This document shows positions 4,399 through 33,422 of a DNA stretch of 64,000 nucleotides, in pieces. The notes beneath the pieces were generated by a model, which saw only the letters and a list, made by a program, of their open reading frames with translations, was not told the DNA's origin and searched no databases. Source of the stretch: Synechococcus sp. BL107 (GTDB taxonomy: Bacteria; Cyanobacteriota; Cyanobacteriia; PCC-6307; Cyanobiaceae). The translations under genes and the position numbers were made by a program. The stretch is taken from the NCBI RefSeq assembly GCF_000153805.1, contig NZ_DS022298.1, positions 965,137 to 1,029,136 on the forward strand. The letters run 5' to 3'. Position 1 is the first letter of the stretch, and each line of letters opens with the position of its first letter.

Positions 4399-5472
4399 AT
4401 GCATACCGTGCTTGCCCTCGAAACAAGTTGTGACGAGTCAGCCGCTGCGGTTGTACGCCACAAAACCGATGGCAGCGTTGAGGTTTTGGCGTCTGGGATT
4501 GCGTCACAAGTTGAGGAGCATGCTCTCTGGGGTGGGGTTGTTCCAGAGATTGCCTCGCGTCGTCATGTGGAGGCTTTGCCCGCATTAGTGCGGGCAGTTT
4601 TGCGGGACTCCGGGCTGTCGATTTCTGAGTTGCATGCGGTCGCAGCAACCGTGGCACCAGGCTTGGCAGGCGCTTTGATGGTGGCGTCAGTGACGGGTCG
4701 CACCCTTGCGGCTTTGCATCAGGTGCCTTTTTTGGGAATTCATCACCTCGAAGGGCATTTGGCATCAGCCGCCCTGGGTGAGCATGCCCCCGCTCCTCCT
4801 TATCTAGTTCTTTTGGTGAGTGGTGGTCACACCGAGCTGATTCGTGTGGGTCTCCACGGAGAGATGGAACGACTCGGCCGAAGTCATGACGATGCCGCTG
4901 GTGAAGCCTTTGACAAGGTGGCTCGGCTGCTGGGTCTTGGGTATCCGGGTGGTCCCGCGATTCAGGCCATCGCTGCTTCAGGGAATTCCAAACGTTTTTC
5001 ACTGCCGAAAGGACGGATCTCTCTGCGGGGTGGTGGATTTCATCCCTACGACTTTTCCTTCAGTGGATTGAAGACAGCCATGTTGCGCACTGTTGAGTCG
5101 TGCCAGTGCTCTGGGGGTGAACTGCCTCTGGCCGATCTCGCGGCCAGTTTTGAGCAGGTGGTGGCTGATGTCTTGGTGGAACGCGCTATCCGTTGTGCCC
5201 TTGATCACAACCTCACGCAGCTTGTGATGGTGGGTGGTGTGGCTGCCAACCAACGTCTAAGACTCCTGATGGCGAAACAGGGCAATCAGCATGGTGTTGG
5301 CGTATCCATTGCTCCTTTGGCGTATTGCACCGATAACGCCGCCATGATTGGAGCCGCAGCGCTCAACCGGTTGAAGCGTGGGATGGTGTCGTCAAGCGAC
5401 GAAACAGGGGTAGCAGCTCGCTGGCCATTGGAACGGGCTGATGCGCTTTACGAAGCTTCACCTGCCTTTTGA
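4399..5472 (+). CDS. tsaD: tRNA N6-threonylcarbamoyladenosine synthase subunit TsaD
   Basis: Transfers the threonylcarbamoyl group to A37 of tRNAs that read ANN codons, together with TsaB and TsaE. The ASKHA ATPase fold is visible: ALETSCDES at the N-terminus, the metal-binding [10 protein letters not shown] motif (about residues 115-124), SGGHTELI, and [10 protein letters not shown] near the C-terminus. At 357 aa it is full length. It is divergent from psaF and followed by a small HLIP gene after 37 bp. Confidence 0.96.
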
Positions 5473-5509: not shown

Positions 5510-5695
5510 ATGGCAGATCAGTCAGGGCAAAAAACAGCAATGCAGACCTCTGAACCCGTGGGATCTGCTGAACTCAACGAATGGAAGCGCGGCTTCACAC
5601 CTCAGGCGGAGATTTGGAATGGACGGCTCGCCATGATTGGTTTATCTGCAGGAATGGCCGTGGTGCTGGTGTCGAGGGTGTTCAACGCGGGTTGA
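5510..5695 (+). CDS. hli: High-light-inducible protein (HLIP)
   Basis: 61-residue single-helix thylakoid protein of the chlorophyll a/b-binding superfamily. The chlorophyll-binding motif EIWNGRLAMIGLSAGM (residues 35-50) has the conserved ExxNGRxAMIG pattern. HLIPs bind chlorophyll and carotenoid and protect newly made photosystem II and chlorophyll under light stress. A G-rich Shine-Dalgarno-like run (AAGGGGGGG) stands just before the ATG. The TGA stop abuts the TGA of the converging pilT with no base between them. Confidence 0.92.
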   Translation: MADQSGQKTAMQTSEPVGSAELNEWKRGFTPQAEIWNGRLAMIGLSAGMAVVLVSRVFNAG

Positions 5696-6920
5696 TCAAT
5701 CTCGTCCGCGTAGGGCCTGGGCGAGCTCATGCGGTTTCAAGCTCACCGCAACAGCTCGATCTGATGTAACGCGATACGCTTCAACAAGGGCTTGAAGCGA
5801 TTGATTTGATGTGACCATGCCATCAAAACTGCTTCGCGACATGATGTCTTCCACCTCATCAAGGCATCCCTGCTGGATGTAATCCCTGCAGGCATCTGTA
5901 TTGACCAGGATGTCGTGATAAGCAGCCCGTTTGTTGTCGTTGGTGCGAATCAGCCCCTGAGCGATCACCCCAACTAAGGATTCGGAGAGTGATCGGCGAA
6001 TGCTGGATTGTTCCTCAGGCGCATACATCCCGAGCACTCTCTCTACGGTTTTAACTGCTGAGTTGGTGTGCAGCGTCCCAAACACCAAGTGACCGGTTTG
6101 AGCTGCTTCAAGCGCTGTTGAAAGGGTCTCCTGATCTCGGATTTCCCCCACCAGGATCACATCTGGATCTTCTCGTAAGGCGGCCCGCAAGGCGTGATGG
6201 AACTTCAGGGTGTTCAAGCCCACTTCGCGGTGACGAATCAGGGACTTTCGGCTTTCATGCACAAATTCCACCGGATCTTCGATAGTGAGGATGTGGCAGG
6301 TTTTGTTGCGATTGATCCAATCGATCATGGCGGCCAAAGTTGTGCTCTTTCCAGATCCAGTCGGTCCTGTCACCAGCACGAGTCCCTTGGGACGTGCTGC
6401 TAAATCTTTGAGCACCTCTGGAAGGTTGAGCTCCTCCATGCTGAGGATGGTTTGAGGGATGAGCCGCAGCACCATCGCTGGGCCACGCAATGAGCAGCAC
6501 CATCGCTGGGCCACGCAATGAATCGAGCAAATTGATCCGCACGCGCACGAAGGGAAAAGCAAAGGCGCTGTCGAGTTCTTTATTCCGATAAAAGGAATCG
6601 ATTTGCTGCGGCGAGAGAATTTCACGAAGCCATCCCTGAAACACCGCGTCATCGGTGGTAGGCCAGTCGGTGGTTTGAATGTCGCCACGCGCTCGAAAGC
6701 GCGGACGTTCTCCCACGCCAAGGTGAACATCCGAATGTCCCGCGTTATCGGCAATGCGCAGGATGGTCTCCAGGGATGGGGATCCTTTTGTGCCCCGCAC
6801 GTCCGGAGTTGTGGCCTCCGCAGTGGATGCGGCTTGAGAAGGTGATGCCGGAGAGGGAGGATTGGCTGAGTTGCCGGCAGAGCGCGGCGGAAAGCTAGGA
6901 GGAAAGACCGGCTGATCCAA
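5696..6920 (-). pseudogene. pilT: PilT-type twitching motility ATPase, frame broken by a 28-bp tandem duplication
   Basis: Type IV pilus retraction ATPase in two reading frames. The N-terminal part starts at a TTG (position 6920), has a Pro/Ser-rich leader, and reads to NLLDSLRGPAMVL. The C-terminal part resumes at MVLRLIPQTILSMEELNLPE and carries Walker A GPTGSGKST, the Walker B region DPDVILVGEIRD and HLVFGTLHT. The break lies exactly at a perfect 28-bp direct repeat. Removing one copy restores one frame of about 398 aa, with no other defect seen. As it stands, the upstream frame ends after about 221 aa, before Walker A. The second copy supplies an ATG that could start an isolated ATPase domain. 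It could be a real null or switchable allele, or an assembly error. Confidence 0.85.
6466..6521. repeat. Perfect 28-bp tandem duplication inside pilT
   Basis: Two identical head-to-tail 28-bp units, 6466-6493 and 6494-6521. Each begins GCAGCACCATCGCTGGGC and ends CAATGA. The flanking bases differ, so the repeat is exactly two units. Since 28 is not a multiple of 3, the extra copy shifts the pilT frame by one. The peptide SLRGPAMVL is therefore encoded in two frames side by side. Confidence 0.97.
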
Positions 6921-7034: not shown

Positions 7035-8147
7035 ATGGCCGATCAGCCCCGCGTCACCATCGTTTTAGGGACGCGCCCTGAGGCGATCAAGCTCGCTCCT
7101 GTGATCCGCACTTTTCAAGCGTGTGAGGCCCTAACGACCCGGGTTGTGTTGACCGGTCAGCACCGGGAAATGGTGACCCAGGTGATGGATCTCTTCGGTT
7201 TGCAAGCCGACAAGGATCTCAACTTGATGGCACCACGCCAAACATTGACCCACGTCACCTGCGCTGCGTTGCAGGGCTTGCGGGACGATTTTCAGGATTT
7301 TCCTCCCCAGATTGTTCTGGTTCAAGGGGATACGACCACGGCATTTGCGGCCGGTTTGGCAGCGTTCTATGAGCAAATACCGGTCGGTCATGTGGAAGCG
7401 GGTTTACGAACCGACAACCTGTTGGATCCGTTCCCCGAGGAAGCCAATCGACGTTTGTTGTCTCAGATCGCCACATTGCACTTCGCTCCGACCCTCAAGG
7501 CTGAGCAGAACCTTCGTGCATCTGGGGTTGTTGGAGACCTTTCGGTGACAGGAAACACCGTGATTGATGCGCTGTTGTTGATGGCAGAAAAAGCGCCTGA
7601 GGTGCAGTTTGAGGGGCTCGATTGGACATCCCAGCGCGTGATTTTGGCCACGGTCCATCGACGCGAAAATTGGGGAGATCGCTTAACCGACATCGCATCG
7701 GGGATTCGATTGGTCTTGGATCGTTTCCCCGACACCGCCCTCTTGCTCCCACTGCATCGCAATCCCACGGTGCGAGACCCCTTGAAATCCCTCTTGGGGG
7801 ATCATCCGAGGGTCTTCCTAACCGAGCCGCTGGATTACGACCGCCTCGTAGCGGCGATGAAGGGGTGCACGATGTTGCTCACCGACTCCGGTGGACTTCA
7901 AGAAGAAGCACCAGCCCTTGGTAAACCAGTGCTTGTACTGCGTCGAACCACCGAACGCCCAGAAGCGGTCGATGCCGGTACGGCTCGGCTGGTTGGCACC
8001 GATCCCACTGTCATCTTGGAGGAAGCTTCTCGTCTTTTAGGGGATGCAGAGGCCTACGAATTGATGTCTCGAGCGGTCAATCCCTTTGGTGATGGGCAAG
8101 CAAGTGCGCGCATCCTCGATCTCTGCCGGCGCCATCTCGGCGTCTAA
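7035..8147 (+). CDS. wecB: UDP-N-acetylglucosamine 2-epimerase (non-hydrolysing)
   Basis: Interconverts UDP-GlcNAc and UDP-ManNAc for cell-surface polysaccharides. Family landmarks are TIVLGTRPEAIKLAPVI at the start, QGDTTTAFAAGLAAFY, HVEAGLRTDNLLDPFPEEAN (about residues 119-138), TVHRRENWG, PLHRNP, and the C-terminal LTDSGGLQEEAPALGKPVL nucleotide-binding stretch. It is 370 aa, full length. No other polysaccharide gene is directly adjacent. The following DUF1643 gene overlaps its 3' end. Confidence 0.95.
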   Translation: MADQPRVTIVLGTRPEAIKLAPVIRTFQACEALTTRVVLTGQHREMVTQVMDLFGLQADKDLNLMAPRQTLTHVTCAALQGLRDDFQDFPPQIVLVQGDTTTAFAAGLAAFYEQIPVGHVEAGLRTDNLLDPFPEEANRRLLSQIATLHFAPTLKAEQNLRASGVVGDLSVTGNTVIDALLLMAEKAPEVQFEGLDWTSQRVILATVHRRENWGDRLTDIASGIRLVLDRFPDTALLLPLHRNPTVRDPLKSLLGDHPRVFLTEPLDYDRLVAAMKGCTMLLTDSGGLQEEAPALGKPVLVLRRTTERPEAVDAGTARLVGTDPTVILEEASRLLGDAEAYELMSRAVNPFGDGQASARILDLCRRHLGV

Positions 8148-32005: not shown

Positions 32006-33109
32006 TCAGGAAAAACCCTTTCCAGCATCCTTGGCGACACACTCCTGCAATTGTTGGCGCAGCAGATTGTGGTCGAGGTTTCGGCCGATCAACACGAGTT
32101 GGTTTTTTCGATCACCTGTCCATTCGGAGTCGTCAATGGAAAAACGCTTACCAGCGAGGTGAAAGACATGGCGCTTCTCGCTTTCGTTGAACCAAAGAAT
32201 GCCCTTCGCCCTGAACACTTCTTGGGGCATCTGATTGTCGAGAAAATTTTGAAATTTCCGCAGAGCAAAAGGTCCATCGCTTTGGAATGACAGGGATGTG
32301 AATCCTTCGATTTCCAGATGATCGGCATGGTCGTGCCCATGGCTGTGGTCGTGCCCATGGCTGTGGTCGTGCCCATGGCTGTGGTCGTGCCCATGGCTGT
32401 GGTCGTGCCCATGGCTGTGGTCGTGCCCATGGCTGTGGTCGTGTTCAGAATCTTGGCTGCTGTTCTTGATCTCGGTTCCAACGACCTTGTCGGATTCAAA
32501 GAGGCCGACGCTCAGCATCAGCGGGAGGGGCACATCTCCTTTGACGGAGCGCAAAATCCGTGCGTCATTTTTGACGTCGCGCAATTGTTGTTCGACGCTT
32601 TGGAGGCGATCCTCCGAAACCAAATCGCACTTGTTCAGAAGCAAAATATCTCCATAGATCACTTGAGATCGCCCCACTTCTGTGGCGAGCACGTCATCGT
32701 CAAAATTTTCAGCATCGATCAGGGTGATAATCGAATCGAGGCGGGTTTGATCGCGAAGCTCGCTCCCCAAAAAGGTCATGGCCACGGGTAGTGGATCCGC
32801 CAACCCCGTGGTTTCCACCACGATGTAATCCATCGGTTCCGGACGATCAATAATCCGTTCGACGGCTTCCATCAGCTCGCCATTGATCGAGCAACAGACG
32901 CATCCATTGCTCAGTTCGACCATCTCCTCACCAGTGGTCACGATCAAGTCATTGTCGATGCCGATCTCGCCAAATTCGTTGACAAGCACTGCTGTTTTCA
33001 CACCCTGCTGATTGCTCAGGATGTGATTCAGCAGTGTGGTTTTACCTGCACCAAGGAAGCCACTCAGGATGGTGACGGGCACCCCGGTTGGGGCAGGGGC
33101 GGTGGTCAT
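32006..33109 (-). CDS. COG0523 (CobW/ZNG-type) metallochaperone GTPase with expanded His-rich loop
   Basis: About 367 aa. The GTPase core has Walker A GFLGAGKTT (about residues 17-25), the metal-binding GCVCCSI motif (about residues 68-74) and NKCD. A CobW C-terminal domain follows (LVSVFPL-like region near the end). Between the two lies a roughly 44-residue His/Asp/Gly stretch made of repeated HSHGHD units. COG0523 proteins deliver zinc, cobalt or nickel to client enzymes. The start is ATG 33109 (MTTAPAPTGVPVTILSGF). It sits 19 bp after phhB in the same direction. Confidence 0.9.
   Translation of the reverse strand: MTTAPAPTGVPVTILSGFLGAGKTTLLNHILSNQQGVKTAVLVNEFGEIGIDNDLIVTTGEEMVELSNGCVCCSINGELMEAVERIIDRPEPMDYIVVETTGLADPLPVAMTFLGSELRDQTRLDSIITLIDAENFDDDVLATEVGRSQVIYGDILLLNKCDLVSEDRLQSVEQQLRDVKNDARILRSVKGDVPLPLMLSVGLFESDKVVGTEIKNSSQDSEHDHSHGHDHSHGHDHSHGHDHSHGHDHSHGHDHSHGHDHADHLEIEGFTSLSFQSDGPFALRKFQNFLDNQMPQEVFRAKGILWFNESEKRHVFHLAGKRFSIDDSEWTGDRKNQLVLIGRNLDHNLLRQQLQECVAKDAGKGFS
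32329..32443. repeat. Six perfect 18-bp tandem repeats in the COG0523 gene
   Basis: Unit GGTCGTGCCCATGGCTGT repeats six times without a single mismatch (32329-32436), then a partial seventh unit follows. On the coding (minus) strand it encodes His-Ser-His-Gly-His-Asp repeats. Being a multiple of three, copy-number changes keep the frame. Perfect identity at synonymous positions suggests recent expansion by slippage. Confidence 0.95.
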
Positions 33110-33128
33110 AACGCGAGCTGTTCTGAGG

Positions 33129-33422
33129 TCATGCTGGCAGCAGATCGTCGATTGCAGAGGCCAGCTCCTCGTCAAGGCTGCTGAGCCCACCAAGGTCGTG
33201 GGTGGTGAGCTCGATCGTCACTCGGTTGTAGACGTTGCTCCAATTTGGATGGTGATTGCGTGCTTCCGCTAACAGAGCCACTTGGGCCATGAATCCGAAG
33301 GCCTCAACGAAGTTCTTAAAAACCAATTGGCGCTGAAGGCACGTGTTGATGACTCTCCACTGCGGAAGTCGGCTTGCCAAGGCCTCGATTTGATCCTGAT
33401 TCAGTCGTTGTGCAGTCATCAT
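33129..33422 (-). CDS. phhB: Pterin-4a-carbinolamine dehydratase
   Basis: About 97 aa. The family signature [20 protein letters not shown] and the following [15 protein letters not shown] are clear. The enzyme recycles 4a-hydroxytetrahydrobiopterin; in bacteria without aromatic hydroxylases it may act in folate or molybdopterin metabolism. Two adjacent ATGs (33422 and 33419) are equally possible. It lies 4 bp after yjbQ and 19 bp before the COG0523 gene on the same strand. Confidence 0.9.

Follow-up and report, generated by a model that had tools for sequence, protein, structure and literature searches.

A perfect 28-bp tandem duplication breaks a pilT-family gene of Synechococcus sp. BL107, and this is probably a recent, strain-private loss-of-function mutation in an accessory gene, pilT2, whose partner operon is deleted. 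The gene lies in the window, the whole stretch of 64,000 nucleotides that was analysed. BL107 belongs to clade IV and has a genome of 2.28 Mb (PMC2441476); its assembly (G000) is 2,285,034 bp in one contig, and its nearest complete relative is the sister genome CC9902 (G001, 2,234,828 bp). A replication-slippage type event would have made the duplication and frameshifted pilT2, and the mutation is presumably fixed in the strain. The gene may have been free to be lost because the ancestral pilBTC, its putative evolutionary partner, is deleted in BL107, and the present-day pilus would be the product of another, complete cluster that encodes a PilT of its own. The BL107 case would then be one of many independent pilT2 losses accompanying the loss of the ancestral pilus machine.

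Table 1 Features at and around the pilT2 locus (positions in the window)
Feature	Position	Strand	Basis or remark
tsaD (O-sialoglycoprotein endopeptidase/tRNA t6A gene), conserved left anchor	4399-5472	+	
Small high-light-inducible-type protein (ExxNGRLAMIG), directly convergent with pilT2	5510-5695	+	Read from sequence
pilT2, TTG start, frameshifted	5696-6920	-	398 aa with one copy omitted; TIGR01420 431 bits, cut-off 319
pilT2 C-terminal part, other frame	5696-6490	-	Residues 134-398 matched at 100%; intact Walker A, Walker B and His-box
Broken-frame product, 221 aa	6255-6920	-	Native for about 144 N-terminal residues; the rest, up to the stop at 6255, is out of frame
Tandem copy, downstream in gene direction	6466-6493	-	Identity to 6494-6521
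Tandem copy, upstream in gene direction	6494-6521	-	Identity; junction private to the BL107 genome within the genus
wecB-like UDP-GlcNAc 2-epimerase gene, conserved right anchor	7035-8147	+	Function presumed, assigned by recognition

The two copies are adjacent and identical at 28/28 positions, and the match cannot be extended on either side. Because 28 is not a multiple of 3, the minus-strand frame from the TTG at 6920 breaks at the duplication. With one copy omitted, a single frame of 398 aa is open from this TTG to the stop at 5696 with zero other stops. The earlier note had described exactly this, a perfect duplication breaking an otherwise intact gene and one frame of about 398 aa when a copy is dropped, and both statements hold. 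The C-terminal part keeps Walker A as GPTGSGKST and Walker B as DPDVILVGE, together with the His-box. PilT hexamers require both domains. A functional split protein is unlikely, because the ATPase core is absent from the N-terminal product and translation of the C-terminal part would have to begin internally.

A scan of the 64-kb window for perfect tandem arrays with periods of 10-399 bp gave just one array besides the 28-bp pair, an 18-bp in-frame repeat at 32328-32443, which excludes a chance origin of the 28-bp copies. The 24-base duplication junction, GATGGTGCTGCTCATTGCGTGGCC, occurred once in the BL107 genome when the 34 genomes of the genus were searched and was not found in the other 33, ruling out a duplication common to the relatives. 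In the comparison with pilT of close relatives that the earlier note proposed, the alignment shows one copy at the site in each of G001, G013 and G025; there is no conserved repeat, and relatives carry lesions of their own.

The broken gene probably encodes the accessory stand-alone paralogue PilT2, not the main retraction ATPase, as judged from its sequence and position. The one-copy protein is a PilT/PilU family ATPase by TIGR01420 (Table 1) and also by PF00437, and is 66% identical to a filamentous cyanobacterial homologue (L046). In a tree of intact orthologues, PilT2 forms a clade apart from the operon-borne PilT1 with support of 100/100. The gene lies outside pilBTC, between tsaD and the wecB-like gene, and its orthologues occupy the same site in relatives. 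The AIRNLIRE motif is linked to retraction in PilT. At this place the one-copy protein reads NTDACRDYIQQGC, where operon PilTs have NTPATANLIREGK or NTPAIANLIRERK, so PilT2 deviates from the motif. Its N-terminus, MDQPVFPPSFPPRSAGNSANPPSPASPSQ, is proline-rich, as in the orthologues, and such an N-terminus is a stated mark of cyanobacterial PilT2 (PMC12288463). In model cyanobacteria, pilT2 mutants are still piliated and transformable, and PilT2 has been proposed to act as a PilU-like helper (PMC12288463). Clade, N-terminus, motif departure and mutant phenotypes together suggest that PilT2 is probably not the main retraction motor. The possibility that the gene is the main retraction ATPase PilT1 was rejected, because it stands alone and an intact pilT is present in the pil cluster of the genome. 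The BL107 gene thus resembles cyanobacterial PilT2 such as Synechocystis sll1533, a second PilT encoded away from pilBTC with a proline-rich N-terminus and a PilT/PilU ATPase core; unlike sll1533 it is frameshifted, and the likeness rests on these described traits.

At least 13 of the 34 genomes of the genus have a broken pilT2 or none (G000, G001, G003, G012, G013, G014, G016, G019, G020, G024, G027, G028 and G029), and at least 8 changes of its state fall on a tree built from the neighbouring genes. The lesions differ. In CC9902, pilT2 has a 1-bp deletion near codon 320 and one copy at the duplication site, ruling out one lesion inherited by BL107 and CC9902. The 5' third of the gene is lost in G003, and almost the whole gene is deleted in G012, G028 and G029; other genomes of the genus have frameshifts and stops, and many of the lesions are irreversible. 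Across the wider family, full-length copies of pilT2 are common; the genomes without one are mainly small, and some of these small genomes retain another pilT and pilB.

The losses follow the state of the ancestral pilus genes. Among near-complete genomes, pilT2 is broken in 0/8 with the ancestral pilBTC and secretin intact (G004, G005, G006, G007, G021, G022, G030 and G033) and lost in 8/10 with the ancestral set damaged or absent (Fisher p = 0.001, or 0.0007 with BL107 added; both values are optimistic owing to relatedness among the genomes). Since pilT2 is intact where pilBTC is intact and lost where it is damaged, we infer from this pattern among related genomes that PilT2 worked with the ancestral pilBTC. 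In G020 (L014, L141), pilBTC is largely intact and pilT2 has two in-frame stops; a search for its secretin detected none, and the pilus seems to have been lost by another route. The exceptions are G002 and G023, with pilT2 intact despite damaged pilBTC. Both genomes (L134 and L142, respectively) have frameshifts in several ancestral pilBTC genes, as if their pilus machine had only begun to decay.

In relatives, the ancestral pilB-pilT1-pilC operon sits between grpE and a flavoprotein gene. In BL107 it is deleted from this interval with about 33 pilB codons left, and in CC9902 it is also lost, with about 53 pilB codons left. The close relative G025 has an intact pilT2, and two of its contigs carry pilB, pilC and the end of pilT1. 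The deletions of BL107 and CC9902 may or may not share an origin: their pilB-side breakpoints differ (193 versus 248 bp matched), and there is very little divergence in the remnants.

BL107 has a complete second pilus cluster at 545-560 kb (545.5-559.7 kb of contig C1; L114:542-14677), in which pilQ, pilN, pilO, pilin-like genes, pilM, pilC, pilT, pilB and a pilin gene are all open. Its PilT is about 51% identical to the ancestral PilT1, and its PilT and PilC group with those of G013, G014, G015, G018 and G021 in a deep, separate clade. A transfer of this cluster from Prochlorococcus was not supported, because PilT and PilC of the ancestral set, the second cluster and Prochlorococcus-sized genomes are three separate clades. 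The divergent second cluster apparently takes the place of the pilBTC deleted beside grpE. BL107 secretes PilA1, which makes up 8.9% of its exoproteome (PMC7994388); a pilus is therefore made, presumably by the second cluster.

To estimate the age of the lesion, we counted codon changes over pilT2 codons 46-391. The BL107 branch has 8 nonsynonymous and 37 synonymous changes, the CC9902 branch 6 and 44, and the G025 branch, with an intact gene, 7 and 36. The long-decayed copy of G013 (L174) has 38 nonsynonymous and 13 synonymous changes; it is in neutral decay, even though the gene is intact in its sister G025, whose tsaD is very close to that of G013. Relaxed selection was thus not visible in the BL107 counts, which are like those of the intact G025 copy, and the BL107 protein has two departures from invariant columns. 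By arithmetic from the branch counts, about 114 nonsynonymous changes are expected under neutrality over the whole BL107 branch; the 8 seen indicate that pilT2 was constrained for about nine tenths of the branch or more. A long-standing pseudogene was ruled out by these counts. The lesion has a trait of recent pseudogenes, inactivation in one lineage with intact orthologues elsewhere. Together with the little-diverged pilB remnants, the constraint makes the pilBTC deletion and the pilT2 lesion look recent in BL107 and CC9902 alike.

The absence of relaxed selection means that the loss is very young or that the lesion is not fixed in nature. An assembly error or a mutation born in culture, the duplication being absent from the wild strain, would also leave a private duplication in a gene that is otherwise intact and under normal constraint. 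In cultured Synechocystis lines, pilT2 has gained a tandem duplication of 6 bp and pilC a frameshift (PMC10068330), a precedent for the culture-born variant. We nevertheless consider either origin unlikely: pilT2 has also been lost in the sister genome and in many relatives, so that a natural loss requires no special cause. A perfect 28-bp tandem duplication would, moreover, be an unusual assembly error. A second possibility is that PilT2 recently assisted the second pilus cluster and that its loss now alters that pilus. Selection on pilT2 lasted up to the lesion, the second cluster is intact, and G021 has both clusters together with an intact pilT2; but pilT2 is ruined in G013 and G014, which have a second-type cluster and in which no intact ancestral set was found. 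In CC9902, whose pilT2 was equally constrained until recently, neither pilBTC nor a secretin was detected, so recent constraint does not need a second cluster. Such a helper role is accordingly quite improbable.

Newly formed tandem duplications are able to revert, and here slippage may achieve this. The earlier note went further, proposing that slippage could remove one copy, restore the gene and give on/off variation of pilus retraction; recombination between the two copies would act in the same way. The copies are perfect, omission of one restores the frame, pilT2 is without relaxed selection, and pneumococcal capsule genes are described as having switches of this kind (Waite 2001, 2003, as cited in PMC4022640). 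Against this, the duplication is known from one genome with no variants seen, and is private, not a conserved repeat; CC9902 has its 1-bp deletion instead, and other relatives have lost pilT2 entirely, by unrelated and often irreversible lesions. The gene is the accessory PilT2, the ancestral pilBTC that it tracks with is deleted, and the one pilus cluster that is complete includes an intact pilT. We therefore regard an on/off variation of pilus retraction as very improbable, and an adaptive switch is without support here. A still less probable reading takes the two-copy allele as a revertible off-state of pilT2 that is naturally polymorphic in clade IV Synechococcus, with populations carrying both forms and varying in the behaviour of the second-cluster pilus. 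Recent loss, which the earlier note had listed as an alternative, fits best: the duplication is private, the ancestral pilBTC is deleted, and relatives lose the gene repeatedly. Two observations count against it, the intact pilT2 of the two genomes with damaged pilBTC and the 8:37 ratio without relaxation. Because the loss would be very young, a mixed or revertible state in culture is possible.

Phase variation of pneumococcal cap3A, cap8E and tts likewise involves a perfect, short tandem duplication that shifts the reading frame and is revertible in principle (Waite 2001, 2003); variants and revertants were observed there, whereas the BL107 case is a single genome with no variants, in which the partner machine is absent. 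Among Synechocystis PCC 6803 substrains, a small insertion or frameshift was likewise found in pilT2 or pilC of a cultured cyanobacterium (PMC10068330), but the GT-T pilT2 insertion is 6 bp and in frame, whereas the BL107 duplication, at 28 bp, causes a frameshift. Marine picocyanobacteria are known to lose type IV pilus genes, with the apparatus absent or partly lost in several strains (PMC7994388). That study tracked PilA, PilB, PilC and PilQ; our analysis shows that the stand-alone pilT2 is lost along with the ancestral pilBTC. No paper describing the pilT2 lesion was found in the limited open literature searched.

By itself, the BL107 lesion is an ordinary recent gene loss. The pattern is of more value: pilT2 seems to go with the grpE-linked ancestral pilBTC, not with the divergent second cluster of some strains, which predicts the machine that PilT2 serves. 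Pilus machinery has been repeatedly lost and replaced in marine Synechococcus, and what resembles a switch in a single genome can turn out to be a newly formed pseudogene.

The other perfect array of the window comprises 6.4 copies of its 18-bp unit, in frame (GHDHSH repeated), within an apparent CobW-type GTPase gene at 32006-33193 on the minus strand. Because the copies are identical, this His-rich, probably metal-binding stretch could vary in length while the gene stays unbroken.
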